The notes beneath the pieces were generated by a model, which saw only the letters and a program-made list of their open reading frames with translations, searched no databases and had not been told where the DNA came from. The position numbers and the translations under genes were made by a program. A stretch of 64,000 nt of DNA from an uncultured Oscillospiraceae bacterium (GTDB lineage: Bacteria; Bacillota; Clostridia; Oscillospirales; Oscillospiraceae), in contig CANPYK010000001.1 in the NCBI GenBank assembly GCA_947588605.1, positions 124,001-188,000 of the forward strand, given 5' to 3'. Of this stretch, positions 48,633 through 55,631 are shown in pieces; the first letter of the stretch is position 1, and each line of letters opens with the position of its first letter.

Positions 48633-48654
48633 GTTTGCCGCTCCTTTTTTGCCG

Positions 48655-48690
48655 TAAAAAGCCCCCGCAGCCGGTCTGACTGCGAGGGTC
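48655..48690 (-). terminator. Leader terminator (attenuator) of the aromatic operon
   Basis: Minus-strand stem CCCTCGCAG / CTGCGGGGG (one G-U) with an ~9-base loop, followed by CTTTTTA, 23-58 bases before the aroF ATG and after the aromatic leader peptide. A competing pairing can be drawn between the end of the peptide gene (GGTAAGGC, 48741-48748) and GCCTTGGACC (48687-48696). Confidence 0.8.
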
Positions 48691-48736
48691 CAAGGCGATT
48701 TTTCTTTTGCCCGTCAACCGTTTCAGCCAAACCGTT

Positions 48737-48811
48737 TTAAGCCTTACCAAAAAAATAGGTAAAGCGGAAGGTAAAGCCAAAATAGCTGTTTTCAAGGCGG
48801 ATGTTTTCCAT
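48737..48811 (-). CDS. Phe/Tyr-rich leader peptide of the aromatic operon
   Basis: 24 aa, ATG to TAA, with a GTGAGG site 6 bases upstream. Residues 10-21 (YFGFTFRFTYFF) contain six Phe and two Tyr in twelve positions, after a charged start (MENIRLENS). This is the hallmark of a ribosome-stalling attenuation peptide like those of pheA or pheST in enteric bacteria. It lies between a good promoter and an intrinsic terminator just before aroF. Stalling at Phe/Tyr codons would leave GGTAAGGC free to form the alternative hairpin and open transcription of all eight aro/phe/tyr genes. Confidence 0.85.
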   Translation of the reverse strand: MENIRLENSYFGFTFRFTYFFGKA

Positions 48812-48917: not shown

Positions 48918-48946
48918 TTGACAAGACCGGACAAAAGGAGTATGAT
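48918..48946 (+). promoter_or_regulatory. Promoter of peptide module 1
   Basis: TTGACA (48918-48923), 17-base spacer, TATGAT (48941-48946). Diverges from the aromatic-operon promoter. Confidence 0.85.
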
Positions 48947-49043
48947 ACACCCAGCCCCATTTGGGGGAGGCTGTGCAGAGGTCAAGCACTTCTGGCGGTG
49001 GACCCGCTTCCCGGAGCGACGAGCGAGGGGAGGTGGTAATGGC

Positions 49044-49139
49044 GTGAGGAAAAGGCTGTTAAAGGTACTTATCACCTTGCTGTTGACCATGGCTTTTGCC
49101 GTGATCTACGCGGTGTTTTTCCCCATATACGCCAGTTGA
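49044..49139 (+). CDS. 31-aa hydrophobic peptide, module 1 (candidate type I toxin)
   Basis: GTG start 9 bases after GGGGAGGTGG. The peptide has a basic N-terminus (MRKRLLK), a hydrophobic core of ~20 residues (VLITLLLTMAFAVIYAVF) and ends in FFPIYAS. Length and the last six residues (FPIYAS) match modules 2 and 3. Its TGA lies in the 5' arm of a 15-bp hairpin (49133-49147 / 49155-49169). An outward promoter at 49228-49256 points back at its 3' end. It is the diverged copy. No family is recognised. Confidence 0.65.
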   Translation: MRKRLLKVLITLLLTMAFAVIYAVFFPIYAS

Positions 49140-49169
49140 CCGCTTGGTGTGCGCCCAAGCGGTCAACTG
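49133..49169. terminator. Hairpin overlapping the module 1 stop codon
   Basis: Perfect 15-bp stem CAGTTGACCGCTTGG / CCAAGCGGTCAACTG with a 7-base loop. It could end the sense RNA and, being symmetric, also the antisense RNA. No strong T-run. Confidence 0.6.
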
Positions 49170-49227
49170 ATTGAAATAATTAAGCGATCGCGGGTCCCCG
49201 TCGTGTGACGAGCCCCTTTACAGTCTC

Positions 49228-49269
49228 AGTATACCCCCTCCTGACACCTTTGTCAAGAGGGGGTATACT
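49228..49269. promoter_or_regulatory. Palindromic back-to-back promoter pair, copy 1
   Basis: 13-bp arms AGTATACCCCCTC / GAGGGGGTATACT. Minus strand: TTGACA (49251-49256), 17 bases, TATACT (49228-49233), firing toward the 3' end of module 1. Plus strand: CTGACA (49241-49246), 17 bases, TATACT (49264-49269), firing into module 2. Repeated at +379 and +758. Confidence 0.8.
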
Positions 49270-49293
49270 CATTTTTCGCGAGCATCATTGTGG

Positions 49294-49322
49294 TTGACAG
49301 TTTCCGACAAAAGGAGTATGAT
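49294..49322 (+). promoter_or_regulatory. Promoter of peptide module 2
   Basis: TTGACA (49294-49299), 17-base spacer, TATGAT (49317-49322). Confidence 0.87.
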
Positions 49323-49422
49323 ACACCCAGCCCCATTTGGGGGAGGCTGTGCAGAGGTCAAGCACTTCTGGCGGTGGACCCACCTTTTTTCCGGAGAGTC
49401 TCAGGAAAGGAGGTGGTACGGC

Positions 49423-49518
49423 GTGTGGAAAACATGGAAAAAGATACTTATCTTGATCCTTCTCGTTACGCTGCTGTTTTTGGCATCGAGCATTCTGTTT
49501 CCCATATACGCCAGTTGA
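49423..49518 (+). CDS. 31-aa hydrophobic peptide, module 2 (candidate type I toxin)
   Basis: GTG start 9 bases after AAAGGAGG. Basic, Trp-bearing N-terminus (MWKTWKK), a membrane-length core (ILILILLVTLLFLASSILF) and the shared end FPIYAS. Its mRNA would start ~49329 and have a ~95-base leader with a GCCCCATTTGGGGG hairpin. An 11-bp hairpin (49512-49522 / 49538-49548) overlaps the stop codon. Antisense-facing promoter at 49607-49635. Peptides of this size, charge and arrangement are typical of type I toxins (TxpA, BsrG), but there is no sequence match I can name; it could also be a regulatory membrane peptide. Confidence 0.7.
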   Translation: MWKTWKKILILILLVTLLFLASSILFPIYAS

Positions 49519-49548
49519 CCGCCTGGACGCTACCCAAGCGGTCAACTG
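49512..49548. terminator. Hairpin overlapping the module 2 stop codon
   Basis: 11-bp perfect stem CAGTTGACCGC / GCGGTCAACTG with a 15-base loop, then ATTTCAAATTT. Confidence 0.6.
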
Positions 49549-49606
49549 ATTTCAAATTTGATTGACAACTGGGTCCCCGTCGTGTGACGAGCCCCTTTAC
49601 AGTCTC

Positions 49607-49648
49607 AGTATACCCCCTCCTGACACCTTTGTCAAGAGGGGGTATACT
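49607..49648. promoter_or_regulatory. Palindromic back-to-back promoter pair, copy 2
   Basis: Identical to the pair at 49228-49269; the minus-strand promoter faces module 2, the plus-strand one enters module 3. Confidence 0.8.
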
Positions 49649-49672
49649 CATTTTTCGCGAGCATCATTGTGG

Positions 49673-49701
49673 TTGACAGTTTCCGACAAAAGGAGTATGA
49701 T
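49673..49701 (+). promoter_or_regulatory. Promoter of peptide module 3
   Basis: TTGACA (49673-49678), 17-base spacer, TATGAT (49696-49701). Confidence 0.87.
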
Positions 49702-49801
49702 ACACCCAGCCCCATTTGGGGGAGGCTGTGCAGAGGTCAAGCACTTCTGGCGGTGGACCCACCTTTTTTCCGGAGAGTCTCAGGAAAGGAGGTGGTACGG
49801 C

Positions 49802-49897
49802 GTGTGGAAAACATGGAAAAAGATACTTATCTTGATCCTTCTCGTTACGCTGCTGTTTTTGGCATCGAGCATTCTGTTTCCCATATACGCCAGTTGA
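49802..49897 (+). CDS. 31-aa hydrophobic peptide, module 3 (candidate type I toxin)
   Basis: Same as module 2 in gene, leader, RBS and hairpin (49891-49901 / 49917-49927), 379 bases downstream. Identity of modules 2 and 3, down to non-coding bases, points to a recent tandem duplication. Confidence 0.7.
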   Translation: MWKTWKKILILILLVTLLFLASSILFPIYAS

Positions 49898-49927
49898 CCG
49901 CCTGGACGCTACCCAAGCGGTCAACTG
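49891..49927. terminator. Hairpin overlapping the module 3 stop codon
   Basis: Same 11-bp stem as in module 2, shifted by 379 bases. Confidence 0.6.
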
Positions 49928-49985
49928 ATTTCAAATTTGATTGACAACTGGGTCCCCGTCGTGTGACGAGCCCCTTTACAGTCTC

Positions 49986-50027
49986 AGTATACCCCCTCCT
50001 GACACCTTTGTCAAGAGGGGGTATACT
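49986..50027. promoter_or_regulatory. Palindromic back-to-back promoter pair, copy 3
   Basis: Third copy of the 42-bp palindrome. The minus-strand promoter faces module 3; the plus-strand promoter points into the 3' end of the DUF5658 gene. Confidence 0.75.
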
Positions 50028-50044
50028 CATTTTTCCGCGTCGTT

Positions 50045-50532: not shown

Positions 50533-53500
50533 TTAATATTCGTATACTCCCTCGAACACCATCACGGCGTCGCCGGTGAGGGTGACGAACTCGTCGGAGT
50601 AGTTGACGGTGACGTCGCCGCCGGGGAGCTTGACGGTGGTGTCGCGGGCCTTTTTGAGGTCGCCGCGCTCGGTGGCGGCGATGACGGCGGCGCAGGCGGC
50701 GGTGCCGTTGGCCCGTGTCTCGCCCTCGTCCGGGGCGTAGACGCGGATGCGCAGGGTGTCGTCGTTGACCACCTTCACGAACTCCACGAAGGCCCCTTCG
50801 GGGAGCAAGCCGGAGCCGGTGAGGGCGCGGCCCACGCCCACCACGTCCACGTTCCCCAGGTCCTCGGTGAAGACGGTGCAGTGGGGCACGCCGAGGCTGG
50901 AGAGGGTGATGCGGTACTCCACGCCGTCCACGGTGACGGGCTCGTCCACCACCCGGGACTTGCCGATGAGGTTGACCTGCATCCGTCTTGCGTCCAGGAA
51001 GGCCGTGCCCATGTGGACGCTCACGGTGCTGACACGCCCGTTGCGGGTGTAGAGCTGGAGGGAGCGGATGCCGGTGTCCGTCTGGATGGTCATGTGCTCA
51101 CTTCTGACGATGCCCTTGTCGTAGAGGTACTTGCCCACGCAACGGATGGAGTTGGCGGCCATGCGGCCCTCCGTGCCGTCCTGGTTGAAGATGCGCATCT
51201 TGGCGTCCGCGCCGGCGGAGTTCTCAATGAGCACCAGCGCCCCGCCGCCGATGCCGGTGACCCGGTCGCAGAGGGTGACGCTCAAAGACTCCGGGCTCGT
51301 GATGCGCCCGTCGCGGTTATCGAAGAAGATATAGTCGCTGCCGCAGGTGTGCATCTTGGCGAAGCTCACCAGCTCCCGGCTCTTGCGCATGTCGTTGAGG
51401 TCCACAAGCTCGGTGTTTTCGTTGGTGAAGCGGCTCATGAGGGTGTCCGTCACCGCGTCGGCGGTGTCGAGGCTGGTGATGCAGGGGATGCGCAGGCGCA
51501 CCGCACGGGCGTGGAGGTCGATGAAGTCGCCCATGGTGTCGTCATAGAGAGCGCCGGTGTAGACGATGAAGCTGATGGCCCCCTCGTCCATGAGGGAGTA
51601 AGCGTCGTGGACGTGGCGGACCTCCGTGACCTGAAGGCCCAGGCTGCGGATGACTTGGGCGGTGTCCGGAGTGGCGTAAAGCGCCATGTGGAGATCGCTG
51701 ACCTTCTTGGCAAGCTTCACCACGTCGGGCAGGTCGTGGTTCTCGATGGACAGGAGGACGCCGTTTTTCCCCGGCGTGAAGGCGCCGGCCAGGTTGTAGC
51801 CCGCGGCCCGCAGGCCCTTGAAAAGCGCCTCCGTGAACGTCCGGCCGAGGCCGAGGACCTCGCCGGTTGACTTCATCTCCGGGCCCAGCATGGAGTTGGC
51901 GTCGGTGATCTTCTCAAAAGAGAAGACCGGGACCTTCACGGCGTAATAGGGCGGCGTGTCGCAAAGGACCTTCTCGTAGCCCAGGCCCTTCAACGTCGCG
52001 CCCATCATGACGCGGCTGGCCACGTCCACCATGGGGATGCCGGTGACCTTGCTGAGGTACGGCACCGTCCGGCTGGCGCGGGGGTTGACCTCGATGACGT
52101 AGAGCTCCTTTTTGTAGATGAGGTACTGGATGTTGACTAAACCCCGTGTGCCCAGCTCCAGCGCCAGACGGGTGGAGCACTCCACCACGCGGGCCATCAT
52201 CTTGTCCGTCAGGTTGTAGGGGGGATAGACGGCGATGGAGTCGCCGGAGTGGACGCCGGCCCGCTCGATGTGCTCCATGATGCCGGGCATTAAGACGTCC
52301 GTGCCGTCGGAGATGACGTCCACCTCCAGCTCGGTCCCCGGCATATACTTGTCCACCAGGACCGAATTGTCCTCCCGCTCGGTGCTGGCAAAGATGAGGG
52401 CCATGTAGCTGCGCACGTCCTGTTCGTCGTGGGCAATGACCATGTTCTGGCCGCCGATGACGTAGCTCGGCCGCAGGAGCACCGGGTAGCCCAGCGTCTC
52501 GGCGGCGGACAGGGCCTCCTCCAGGGTGTGGGTGCCGAAGCCCCGGGGCCGCTTGATGCCGAGGGACTCCAAAAGCGCGTCGAACCGCTCCCGGTCCTCG
52601 GCTAAGTCGATGCCCTCGGCGCTGGTGCCCAGGATGCGGATGCCGGCCTTGTCCAGATACTCCGTGAGCTTGATGGCCGTCTGGCCGCCGAAGGCCACCA
52701 CCACGCCGATGGGCTTCTCCACCGCGATGACGCCCATGACGTCCTCGGGGGTCAGGGGCTCGAAGTAGAGCCTGTCGGCGGTGTCGTAGTCGGTGGAGAC
52801 GGTCTCCGGGTTATTGTTGATGATCACCACGTCGTAGCCCAGCTTCTTGAGGGTCACGGCGCAGTGGACGGAGCTGTAGTCGAACTCGATGCCCTGCCCG
52901 ATGCGGATGGGGCCGGAGCCGATGACGATGACGCTCATGCGCCGGCGCGGCATGGGCCGGGAGTCGCACTTGTCGTTGTAGGCGGAGTAGTAGTAGGGCG
53001 TCTCGGCCTCGAACTCGGCGGCGCAGGTGTCCACCATCTTGTAGACGGGGTCTATATGCGGGATCTCCTTCTGGCCGGAGATGGCCCGGAGGGCCGCGTC
53101 GGTGTAGCCCAGGCGCTTGCCCTTTAAATATGTCTCGCCGTCGATGCCGTTTTTGGCGATGTCATTTTCGAAGTTGACGAGATTTTGGAGCTTGTGGAGG
53201 AACCAGCGGTCGATCATGGTGACCTCGTGGATGTGCTCCACGCTGACGCCGGCCTTCAGCGCCTCAAAGACGGTGAAGATCCGAAGGTCGTCCATAGCCG
53301 CCAGCCTCTCCTCCAGGGACTTTTTGGGGTCGGGGGCGCGGTTTAAGGTGGACTGGCCGATCTCGGCGCCCCGGACGGCCTTCATAAGGGCCGCCTCGAA
53401 ATTGGGGGCGATGGACATGACCTCGCCGGTGGCCTTCATTTGGGTGCCCAGACGCCTCTGCGCGCCGTGGAACTTGTCGAAGGGCCACTTGGGGAACTTC

Positions 53501-54564
53501 ACAACGCAGTAGTCCACCGTGGGCTCGAAGCAGGCGTAGGTCTTGCCGGTGATGTCGTTGCGGATCTCGTCCAGGGTGTACCCCAGCGCGATCTTCACCG
53601 CCACCTTGGCGATGGGGTAGCCCGTGGCCTTGCTGGCGAGGGCCGAGGAGCGGGACACACGGGGGTTGACCTCGATGACCGCGTACTCGAAGGAATCCGG
53701 GTTCAGGGCGAATTGGCAGTTGCACCCGCCCTCGATGCCAAGCTCGGTGATGATGTCCAGCGCGGCGGAGCGGAGCATCTGATACTCCTTGTCCATGAGC
53801 GTCAGGGCGGGCGCCACCACGATGGAGTCGCCGGTGTGGATGCCCACGGGGTCAAAGTTCTCCATGGAGCAGACGGTGATGACGTTGCCCGCGCCGTCCC
53901 GGATGACCTCGAACTCGATCTCCTTCCAGCCGAAGATGTATTTCTCGATGAGGACCTGATGAATGGGGGAGGTCTCCAGCCCCACGAAGGCGACCTTTCG
54001 AAGCTCGTCGGCGCTGTACGCCACGCCGCCGCCTCCGCCGCCCAGGGTGAAGGCCGGCCGGACGATGACGGGGTAGCCAATGCGGTCGGCGATGGCTACG
54101 CACGTCTCCACGTCGTTGGCGATGTCCGAGGGGATACAGGGCTGACCGATCTTCTCCATCGTCTCCTTGAAGAGCTCCCGGTCCTCGGCCTTGTCGATGG
54201 CCTCGGCATTGGTGCCGATGAGGCGCACGCCGTGCTTCTGCAAAAAGCCCTCGTGCGTCAGCTGCATGGCGATGGTGAGGCCCGTCTGGCCGCCAAGACC
54301 GGCGAGCAGGCAGTCGGGCTTCTCCTTCAAAATGATGCGCTTGACGGTGTCGGCGTTCAAAGGCTCCAGGTAGACGCTGTCGGCCATGTCCCCGTCGGTC
54401 ATGACGGTGGCGGGGTTGGAGTTGACGAGAATGGACTTGACGCCCTCCTGCTTCAAAATGCGGCAGGCCTGGGTGCCGGCGTAATCGAACTCGGCGGCCT
54501 GGCCGATGACGATGGGGCCGGAGCCGATGACCATGACCTTCTTGATGGTTTTATCTAAAGGCAT
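50533..54564 (-). CDS. carB: Carbamoyl-phosphate synthase large subunit fused to a DapF-like domain lacking both catalytic cysteines
   Basis: 1343 aa. Residues 1-~1060 are complete CarB: two ATP-grasp halves (VMVIGSGPIVIGQAAEFDYAG and VIVIGSGPIRIGQGIEFDYSS), GGGGGG loop, oligomerisation region and the MGS-type allosteric domain ending PCITSLDTADAVTD. It makes carbamoyl phosphate from bicarbonate, ATP and ammonia from CarA. Residues ~1066-1343 (~278 aa, full DapF size) are diaminopimelate-epimerase-like: FAKMHTCGSDYIFFDNRDG, MRIFNQDGTEGRMAANS, ETRANGTAACAAVIAA, LPGGDVTVNYSD. The two catalytic Cys of DapF are A1136 (MCGNG becomes MAANS) and N1286 (ACGTG becomes ANGTA). No stop or start separates the parts. 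The ATG overlaps the carA stop (TAATG). Confidence 0.93.
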   Translation of the reverse strand: MPLDKTIKKVMVIGSGPIVIGQAAEFDYAGTQACRILKQEGVKSILVNSNPATVMTDGDMADSVYLEPLNADTVKRIILKEKPDCLLAGLGGQTGLTIAMQLTHEGFLQKHGVRLIGTNAEAIDKAEDRELFKETMEKIGQPCIPSDIANDVETCVAIADRIGYPVIVRPAFTLGGGGGGVAYSADELRKVAFVGLETSPIHQVLIEKYIFGWKEIEFEVIRDGAGNVITVCSMENFDPVGIHTGDSIVVAPALTLMDKEYQMLRSAALDIITELGIEGGCNCQFALNPDSFEYAVIEVNPRVSRSSALASKATGYPIAKVAVKIALGYTLDEIRNDITGKTYACFEPTVDYCVVKFPKWPFDKFHGAQRRLGTQMKATGEVMSIAPNFEAALMKAVRGAEIGQSTLNRAPDPKKSLEERLAAMDDLRIFTVFEALKAGVSVEHIHEVTMIDRWFLHKLQNLVNFENDIAKNGIDGETYLKGKRLGYTDAALRAISGQKEIPHIDPVYKMVDTCAAEFEAETPYYYSAYNDKCDSRPMPRRRMSVIVIGSGPIRIGQGIEFDYSSVHCAVTLKKLGYDVVIINNNPETVSTDYDTADRLYFEPLTPEDVMGVIAVEKPIGVVVAFGGQTAIKLTEYLDKAGIRILGTSAEGIDLAEDRERFDALLESLGIKRPRGFGTHTLEEALSAAETLGYPVLLRPSYVIGGQNMVIAHDEQDVRSYMALIFASTEREDNSVLVDKYMPGTELEVDVISDGTDVLMPGIMEHIERAGVHSGDSIAVYPPYNLTDKMMARVVECSTRLALELGTRGLVNIQYLIYKKELYVIEVNPRASRTVPYLSKVTGIPMVDVASRVMMGATLKGLGYEKVLCDTPPYYAVKVPVFSFEKITDANSMLGPEMKSTGEVLGLGRTFTEALFKGLRAAGYNLAGAFTPGKNGVLLSIENHDLPDVVKLAKKVSDLHMALYATPDTAQVIRSLGLQVTEVRHVHDAYSLMDEGAISFIVYTGALYDDTMGDFIDLHARAVRLRIPCITSLDTADAVTDTLMSRFTNENTELVDLNDMRKSRELVSFAKMHTCGSDYIFFDNRDGRITSPESLSVTLCDRVTGIGGGALVLIENSAGADAKMRIFNQDGTEGRMAANSIRCVGKYLYDKGIVRSEHMTIQTDTGIRSLQLYTRNGRVSTVSVHMGTAFLDARRMQVNLIGKSRVVDEPVTVDGVEYRITLSSLGVPHCTVFTEDLGNVDVVGVGRALTGSGLLPEGAFVEFVKVVNDDTLRIRVYAPDEGETRANGTAACAAVIAATERGDLKKARDTTVKLPGGDVTVNYSDEFVTLTGDAVMVFEGVYEY

Positions 54565-55631
54565 TACCGCACCTCCATCATGTCCATGAATCTGTCGAAC
54601 GCCCATTCCGTGTCCCGGGGCCCGCCGTGGGCCTCCGGGTGGAACTGCATGGAGAAGGCCCGCTTTCCGGGGTAGTCCAGCCCCTCGCAGGTGCCGTCGT
54701 TGACGTTTATAAACCGCGCCTTTGCGCCGATAGCGTCGAGACACCCCATGTCCACCGCGTACCCGTGGTTCTGGCAGGTGATGTACACCCGCCCTGTCTC
54801 CAGGTCCTTCACCGGCTGGTTGGCGCCCCGGTGGCCGAACTTGAGCTTTACCGTCTTGCCCCCCTGGGAGAGGGCCATCATCTGGTGCCCCAGGCAGATG
54901 CCGAAGAGCGGGACGCGGCCCATGAGATTCCCGATCTCGCGGACGCACTCCACATTGTCCGCGGGGTCGCCGGGGCCGTTGGAGAGCATCACGCCGTCCA
55001 CCCGGAGCTTCAAAACGTCCTCGGCCTTCGTATCGTGGGGCAGGACCAGCACCCGGCAGCCGCGCTTTAGAAGGTTCTCCGGGATGCTCCCCTTGGCGCC
55101 GTAGTCCATGAGCGCCACGGTGCGCCGGACCTCGCCCTTGGGCAGCAGCTCCTCCATGACCTTCGTGGACGTGGCGGGGACGGACCCCTCCACCCGGTAG
55201 CTTTTGAGGCTGTGCCAGTCGTAGTCCGCGTCGTCGGTGATGACGGCGTTCATGACGCCCCCGTCCCGGATAAGCTGGGTGAGCTCCCGGGTGTCCACGC
55301 CGGAGATGCCCACGATGCCCATGCGCTCCATGAAGGACTGGATGTTCTCCTGGCACCGGAAGTTGGAGGGCTCGTCGCAAACCTCCCTGACAACAGCTCC
55401 GCGGACATGGATAGACGAGCTTTCCATGTCCGCGTCGGTCACGCCGTAATTACAAAACATCGGGAACGTGAAGATCACCAGCTGCCCGAAGTAGCTGGGG
55501 TCGGTGAGACTTTCCACGCACCCGGTCATTCCCGTGGTGAACACCAGCTCTCCCACGCTGGTCCCGGTCTTGCCAAAGGCTTGTCCCTCATATTTTTTGC
55601 CGTTTTCCAAAATCAAGTAAGCTTTTCCCAT
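54564..55631 (-). CDS. carA: Carbamoyl-phosphate synthase small subunit
   Basis: 355 aa. Class I glutamine amidotransferase that supplies ammonia to CarB. YLILENGKKYEGQAFGKTG start, TGMTGCVESLTDPSYFGQL, SGVDTRELTQLIRD, LSNGPGDPADN, the nucleophile in FGICLGHQMMALS, and the HPEAHGGP catalytic His/Glu. ATG at 55631 follows GGAGGG; longer in-frame starts upstream lie in the end of dapL. No arg or pyr genes are adjacent. Confidence 0.96.
   Translation of the reverse strand: MGKAYLILENGKKYEGQAFGKTGTSVGELVFTTGMTGCVESLTDPSYFGQLVIFTFPMFCNYGVTDADMESSSIHVRGAVVREVCDEPSNFRCQENIQSFMERMGIVGISGVDTRELTQLIRDGGVMNAVITDDADYDWHSLKSYRVEGSVPATSTKVMEELLPKGEVRRTVALMDYGAKGSIPENLLKRGCRVLVLPHDTKAEDVLKLRVDGVMLSNGPGDPADNVECVREIGNLMGRVPLFGICLGHQMMALSQGGKTVKLKFGHRGANQPVKDLETGRVYITCQNHGYAVDMGCLDAIGAKARFINVNDGTCEGLDYPGKRAFSMQFHPEAHGGPRDTEWAFDRFMDMMEVR

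Follow-up and report, generated by a model that had tools for sequence, protein, structure and literature searches.

What is encoded by a chromosomal array of three short tandem repeats in an uncultured Oscillospiraceae bacterium, and what keeps its genes in check? The window analysed here is a stretch of 64,000 nucleotides (contig CANPYK010000001.1 of assembly GCA_947588605.1, positions 124,001 to 188,000 of the forward strand), and all coordinates refer to it unless a locus is named. An initial annotation, made from the letters alone, had taken the array for a set of type I toxin-antitoxin modules. We recovered the layout that it described, with three head-to-tail units at 48918-49293, 49294-49672 and 49673-50035. 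Unit 1 has indeed diverged, sharing 82% identity with unit 2. Units 2 and 3 show no difference in an alignment of 363 bp (100% identity), and the 379 bp of identity previously given is their start-to-start distance. Every unit has its own plus-strand peptide promoter, TTGACA-17-TATGAT (11/12 matches in all three), followed by a leader predicted at 91 nt in unit 1 and 94 nt in unit 2, close to the 95 bases or so first proposed, a good Shine-Dalgarno sequence and a GTG-started gene for a hydrophobic 31-residue peptide (VRKRLLKVLITLLLTMAFAVIYAVFFPIYAS in unit 1, VWKTWKKILILILLVTLLFLASSILFPIYAS in units 2 and 3). A hairpin begins at the stop codon, as had been noted. Further downstream lies a 42-bp palindrome with 19-bp arms that are 95% complementary, and on its minus strand a promoter, TTGACA-17-TATACT, points back into the peptide gene (11/12 matches, 3/3 units). 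Altogether, 12 promoter-like sites were found in 1.9 kb at the array, against a mean of 0.9 in shuffled sequence.

Table 1. Observed and predicted features of the three array units (window coordinates).
Feature	Position	Strand	Basis
Unit 1 peptide promoter, TTGACA-17-TATGAT	48918..48946	+	promoter scan
Unit 1 leader segment GGCGGTGGACCC, complementary to 3'UTR 49192-49202	48994..49005	+	sequence, duplex prediction, fold
Unit 1 predicted Shine-Dalgarno-sequestering hairpin	49004..49036	+	fold
Unit 1 peptide gene, 31 aa, GTG start	49044..49139	+	ORF
Unit 1 stop-codon hairpin, presumed 3' end of antisense RNA	49133..49169		hairpin, family covariation
Unit 1 putative antisense RNA, ~90 nt (start set 7 nt from -10)	49133..49221	-	inferred from promoter and stop hairpin
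Unit 1 3'UTR segment GGGTCCCCGTC, leader partner	49192..49202	+	sequence, duplex prediction, fold
Unit 1 palindrome plus CATTTTT, read as terminator (+) and antisense promoter (-, 49228-49256)	49228..49275		palindrome, promoter and terminator scans
Unit 2 peptide promoter	49294..49322	+	promoter scan
Unit 2 predicted Shine-Dalgarno-sequestering hairpin	49380..49416	+	fold
Unit 2 peptide gene, 31 aa, GTG start	49423..49518	+	ORF
Unit 2 stop-codon hairpin	49512..49548		hairpin search
Unit 2 putative antisense RNA	49512..49600	-	promoter and stop hairpin
Unit 2 palindrome, read as terminator (+) and antisense promoter (-, 49607-49635)	49607..49654		palindrome, promoter and terminator scans
Unit 3 peptide promoter	49673..49701	+	promoter scan
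Unit 3 predicted Shine-Dalgarno hairpin, identical to unit 2	49759..49795	+	unit 2 fold and identity
Unit 3 peptide gene, identical to unit 2	49802..49897	+	sequence, identity
Unit 3 stop-codon hairpin	49891..49927		hairpin search
Unit 3 putative antisense RNA	49891..49979	-	promoter and stop hairpin
Unit 3 palindrome, read as terminator (+) and antisense promoter (-, 49986-50014)	49986..50033		palindrome, promoter and terminator scans

Relatives of these units were collected in two ways. Covariance model R1, built on the stop hairpin together with the antisense region, matched 85 of 400 same-family genomes in 36 of 106 genera (E up to 0.001), 12 of 34 same-genus genomes (E up to 0.01; seven below 1e-9) and 24 of 394 genomes of the order (E up to 1e-6), the window's own genome being counted each time; up to eight matches were seen per genome. 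At the phylum level, the single match among 398 genomes was again the window's own. The large R1 searches ran with stricter filters that lose weak matches, and R1 loci are biased towards carrying a promoter because the model includes promoter columns. An exact DNA pattern that left out the promoter matched 42 stretches in a one-genome-per-species collection. By title, 34 of these come from Oscillospiraceae, Ruminococcaceae or genera that we take to belong there, six are labelled only as Firmicutes, Clostridia or Clostridiales, and two only as 'bacterium'. Pseudoflavonifractor sp. 60 and Colidextribacter sp. OB.20, whose titles carry no MAG label and which we take for cultured relatives, are among the carriers. 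The pattern also matched six viral contigs, one of which is apparently the same DNA as a genome match; viral contig L139 is not independent of L115, as the two contigs are equally long and the unit sits at the same position in both. Neither a search of viral contigs with the genus-type leader pattern nor tblastn of one family peptide against plasmid and phage collections gave a match. The window array thus appears to be one branch of a large gut-bacterial family of RNA-controlled, toxin-antitoxin-like modules, common among gut Oscillospiraceae relatives. The family extends far beyond the array.

For the comparisons below, 52 units with a hairpin and an open reading frame were assembled; removal of L017 (+) and L110, which are non-members, and of L073, a doubtful relative, left 49, and removal of near-identical reading frames left 39, of which the Shine-Dalgarno and leader-duplex analyses took 38 (without L133). 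The 48 pattern loci contributed 29 units after duplicates and failures of the reading-frame and hairpin rules were dropped.

A conserved DNA repeat around an unconserved peptide frame, the outcome named at the outset as counting against the toxin-antitoxin reading, is not what we found. Judged by substitution patterns, the peptide frame is under selection: pN/pS was 0.43 in 15 independent close pairs (pS 0.20, pN 0.087; Fisher p 3.7e-7), counted without the start codon and the final three codons. A hydrophobic core is present in each of the 46 distinct peptides (15-residue Kyte-Doolittle maximum never below 2.25), and in 42 of them the first twelve residues carry a net positive charge. Lengths range from 27 to 32 residues, except for a 25-residue entry (L133) whose start was set too far in. 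The product would therefore be a small, hydrophobic, membrane-spanning peptide under coding selection, one of the marks by which we judged type I membership. Most peptides (44/46) end in AC or AS, a feature that is partly also fixed by the stop hairpin. No Pfam or NCBIfam model reached its cut-off with the two window peptides or 25 family members, three peptides gave nothing better than E 0.012 in PHROGs and no match in PADLOC, and one peptide found no match in the PDB. The family genes are shorter than usual annotation limits. Among the top matches listed in a search of open-licence papers, a weak basis for absence, none describes the module family, which is apparently undescribed.

The 42-bp palindrome had been described as encoding two promoters. 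The minus-strand promoter stands; the plus-strand one does not, its -35 element being poorly conserved. In 11 distinct genus palindromes retrieved with one regular expression, the plus-strand -35 shows one to five mismatches at 17-bp spacing (the two palindromes with five mismatches have TTGACC at 16), whereas the minus strand reads TTGACA in 10/11 with a 17-bp spacer in 11/11. CATTT follows each of the 11 on the plus strand. Since the expression demanded GTCAAG and CTCAT, the minus-strand figure and the first tail bases are partly selected, and at least three genus palindromes were missed. In alignment A1, TTGACA is the minus-strand -35 in 13 of 14 genus-type rows, which were picked with a pattern ending TCAAG. 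The palindrome is best read as a putative intrinsic terminator of the mRNA on the plus strand, with a long stem followed by CATTTTT, and an antisense promoter on the minus strand. A scan allowing one stem mismatch called the palindromes terminators, and a stricter scan of the window array did not list them. Some terminator-like site occurs in 31/49 units versus 5/49 shuffled stretches, and a terminator-like stem overlaps the antisense promoter in 8/8 genus-type units but in only 15/41 others. Such an overlap may be one way of keeping toxin and antitoxin genes coupled.

Distant units lack the palindrome and keep the antisense promoter. The 52 units were assembled with no promoter filter, and in 48 of them the antisense promoter scores at least 11/12 matches, a value reached in 0.1% of mononucleotide shuffles of the same stretches. 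In the 29 units from promoter-free pattern loci the count is 28, and the one miss (L110) has a non-family peptide. The antisense promoter is a full 12/12 in 39/52 units, and the best peptide promoter reaches 12/12 in 9/52, as expected if the antitoxin exceeds the toxin mRNA. At the sequence level, the units accordingly contain a promoter for an antisense RNA that overlaps the toxin mRNA. A TTTT run follows the stop hairpin in 30/49 units; it is absent from the window-type antisense RNA, which makes the 3' end of the latter uncertain. An Rfam search of the window gave nothing at the gathering threshold. Its best sub-threshold match, tsr31 on the minus strand of the palindrome, scored 26.2 bits against a gathering value of 50 and was taken as chance.

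The mRNA itself is predicted to be closed. Mean pairing of the Shine-Dalgarno sequence was 0.87, compared with 0.65 when the upstream sequence was shuffled; it was higher than in shuffles in 33/38 units and no higher in the remaining 5/38, so that the prediction gives a toxin mRNA with a sequestered Shine-Dalgarno sequence. In 18 stop hairpins chosen by the analyst for diversity, 29 cells changed on both sides versus 10.6 in shuffles, and the type of stop codon (TGA, TAG or TAA) changes along with its pairing partner; one of five covariation measures, that of further pair types, fell below shuffles (9 versus 13.0).

We also found a structure that the initial annotation had missed: in sequence comparison, the leader and 3'UTR of the same unit covary as the two strands of a long 5'-3' helix. 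Cognate pairs in 38 units had a mean duplex energy of -43.1 kcal/mol, compared with -35.5 in non-cognate combinations and -26.5 with shuffled leaders, and none of 10,000 permutations matched the cognate pairing, related units being treated as separate in this count. The cognate 3'UTR was not the best partner for 28/38 leaders (median rank 2). Covariation was scored in 28 of the 39 units, leaving out five window-type units as well as L060, L101, L105, L112, L116 and L143, most of them because they are without the leader motif. There were 47 cells changed on both sides versus 14.7 in shuffles, and 12 of 23 pairs had such changes; the share of cells that pair is 92.8%, falling to 87.7% after shuffling and to 30-57% when the strands are slid. 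Helix 2 is favoured by the sampling because units were picked on the leader GGYGGY motif; helix 1 played no part in the picking, and 7 of its 11 pairs covary. In 28/28 units, the leader has the longer linker between the helices. The long helix appears in the predicted folds of six chosen family mRNAs and, shortened, in those of both distinct window units. The 3'UTR is complementary to the antisense RNA and pairs with the leader, so the first half of the antisense RNA is nearly the leader itself.

We considered whether binding of the antisense RNA would strongly hide the Shine-Dalgarno sequence and rejected this: pairing is predicted to rise from 0.84 to no more than 0.89 (p 0.006), with no significant change at the start codon (p 0.11). 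Since antisense binding barely raises this pairing, decay is favoured over hiding.

The surroundings of the array are ordinary chromosomal ones. It is flanked by genes for DAHP synthase and a DUF5658 protein, beyond which lies a carbamoyl-phosphate synthase/DAP epimerase frame, and no phage gene was found among seven neighbouring proteins scanned. Single units adjoin a DAHP synthase start in two same-genus genomes (L016 and L018), and a two-unit array in G031 adjoins a DAP-epimerase-like end, so the array position seems partly common by descent. Other copies, unlike the window array, lie in phage-like surroundings: of ten neighbouring proteins picked as phage-like, nine (from L146, L142, L061, L051, L148, L143 and L152, with L142 and L143 being viral contigs) matched phage tail, holin or endolysin families, and the one from L141 gave no match. 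Prophage regions are described as a common location of type I systems in the excerpted text of PMC6563280.

These locations bear on what else the units could be. A non-toxic small membrane peptide, a regulator or stress protein tuning a membrane process under tight antisense control, would also have a selected frame and could well sit beside ordinary biosynthesis genes, as the window array and its sister loci do. We consider this unlikely, as the multiple variable copies per genome, the patchy presence (85/400 genomes; 12/34 in the genus) and the copies in prophage regions better suit a selfish or addiction-like module. Several copies adjoin tail, holin or endolysin genes, which would fit a domesticated phage peptide with a lysis-timing or holin-like role; nearly all units, however, have their own peptide and antisense promoters, no holin family matched, and the window locus lies in the chromosome beside DAHP synthase with no phage gene in the seven neighbours, making such an origin highly improbable. 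That the units are mobile, MITE-like DNA in which the inverted repeats and the frame are incidental is scarcely credible. The reading frame is indeed flanked by inverted complementary segments and the unit is amplified in tandem, but the frame is selected, both promoters are conserved outside the inverted segments, the asymmetry of the segments is constant (longer leader linker in 28/28) and each leader matches its own 3'UTR.

We therefore regard the units, with good though incomplete confidence, as antisense-controlled, type I-like modules with a harmful peptide, whose transcription and toxicity we infer along with the displacement and RNase III steps described below. The toxin-antitoxin reading of the initial annotation is borne out by comparison, through the selected frame, the near-perfect antisense promoter, the predicted sequestered Shine-Dalgarno sequence and the covarying stop hairpin; copies beside phage tail and lysis genes and truncated antisense-only copies also count in its favour. 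Comparative evidence likewise supports the promoters, the Shine-Dalgarno hairpin and the leader-3'UTR helix as parts of the module. In the working model, a strong promoter would give an mRNA of ~320 nt encoding the small membrane peptide. This mRNA would be closed and silent, with the Shine-Dalgarno sequence in a hairpin and the 5' leader paired with its own 3'UTR. From inside the mRNA terminator, the consensus promoter would fire back to make an antisense RNA of ~90 nt that spans the 3'UTR together with the stop-codon hairpin. Because it begins with a near copy of the leader, this RNA could replace the leader on the 3'UTR; that it does displace the leader is our tentative proposal, a little short of evenly poised. 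The resulting uninterrupted duplex would be a likely RNase III substrate, whereas the leader-3'UTR helix retains a leader-strand bulge that may protect it. Should the antisense RNA become scarce, the peptide would be made and would enter the membrane.

In its arrangement, the module resembles several known systems and coincides with none of those compared. The Fst/Ldr (par) family combines a short hydrophobic peptide with a convergent antisense RNA, as here, and par has a bidirectional terminator and direct repeats. Neither of the latter was seen in our units, where the common segments are inverted instead, and the family peptides had no Fst match in NCBIfam or Pfam. In hok/Sok and aapA/IsoA, the antitoxins target the 5' part of the toxin mRNA. 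The antisense promoter here lies in the 3' region, the antisense RNA overlaps the 3' part of the mRNA and resembles the leader rather than its complement, and the peptides have no family match; the common feature, on comparative grounds, is a 5'-3' long-distance interaction of the toxin mRNA. Pfam includes a TxpA-like model, and 25 family peptides gave no Pfam or NCBIfam match at cut-off and thus no profile similarity to TxpA or BsrG; the antitoxin, judged by promoter position, does overlap the 3' end of the toxin mRNA as in those systems. Precedent for 5'-3' closure of a toxin mRNA comes from aapA and hok (PMC6733600, in excerpt).

The closest likeness is to bsrG/SR4 and txpA/RatA of Bacillus subtilis, which, in the excerpts of PMC7430163, combine a small hydrophobic peptide with RNAs for toxin and antitoxin whose 3' ends overlap, and which also have a Shine-Dalgarno sequence in a short helix, a stronger antitoxin promoter and prophage copies. 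The same excerpts make bsrG/SR4 a precedent for the mechanism proposed here: its antitoxin overlaps the toxin mRNA at the 3' end, RNase III cuts close to the stop codon, and the Shine-Dalgarno stem is lengthened. The antitoxin predicted here is shorter, at ~90 nt versus 180 for SR4 and 222 for RatA (PMC7430163, same excerpts). Leaving helix P1 of bsrG aside, the leader-length 5'-3' complementarity and the leader-like 5' half of the antitoxin set the present units apart. By analogy, the best reading is a bsrG/SR4-like layout with hok/AapA-like 5'-3' closure. Modules of Clostridioides difficile (CD2517.1-RCd8 and others) are likewise from Clostridia, with convergent, overlapping toxin and antitoxin genes and many copies in prophages; their toxins have 34-59 residues and a charged C-terminus, a feature described for B. 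subtilis type I toxins as well (PMC6563280, in excerpt). The present peptides have 27-32 residues with the charge at the N-terminus, and 44/46 end in AC or AS without a charged C-terminus. In its excerpted text, that 2019 review restricts Clostridia type I knowledge to experimentally validated C. difficile modules (PMC6563280).

These features may define a type I family, found here in one order only, in which the first half of the antitoxin approximates the leader and the two compete for one 3'UTR in a strand-exchange switch. The mRNA would be stored stably as the bulged leader helix and destroyed once it is in the uninterrupted antitoxin duplex, and the antitoxin promoter would lie inside the toxin terminator. 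We advance this scheme with slightly less than even confidence; the conserved leader-3'UTR helix turns the action of 3'-overlapping antitoxins into a testable model.

Some units have lost their peptide gene. A second locus in the window's genome (C5:90477-90979) holds one full and one truncated unit, and G021 and G011 have similar truncated copies. Such units, at C5:90495-90623, L017:1334-1455 and L018:1144-1272, are without the peptide gene but have kept the palindrome, the antisense region and the stop hairpin. They are possible stand-alone antitoxin RNAs. The weakest DNA match in the window's genome (E 0.017; L011 ~1511-1800, on contig C25) is unrelated; by eye, it falls where a lipoprotein-like frame begins, one in which segments containing Cys are repeated.

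Some further sequences deserve mention in their own right. The minus-strand frame at 50533-55380 is a single frame of 1615 residues with carbamoyl-phosphate synthase large-chain domains and diaminopimelate epimerase, possibly a CarB-DapF fusion, with an uncertain true start. In the minus-strand region 48640-48811, upstream of the DAHP synthase gene, a short Phe-rich frame, MENIRLENSYFGFTFRFTYFFGKA, lies at 48737-48811; L016 and L018 have a similar one by eye, and it is likely a phenylalanine attenuator. Finally, five same-genus loci (L073, L075, L076, L077 and L091) gave weak R1 matches (E 1.2e-4 to 0.009) beside other short peptides, which had no Pfam match at cut-off. Some of these peptides have a basic KDK-type tail, and a similar hairpin and antisense promoter are visible by eye; the loci perhaps represent further type I families.
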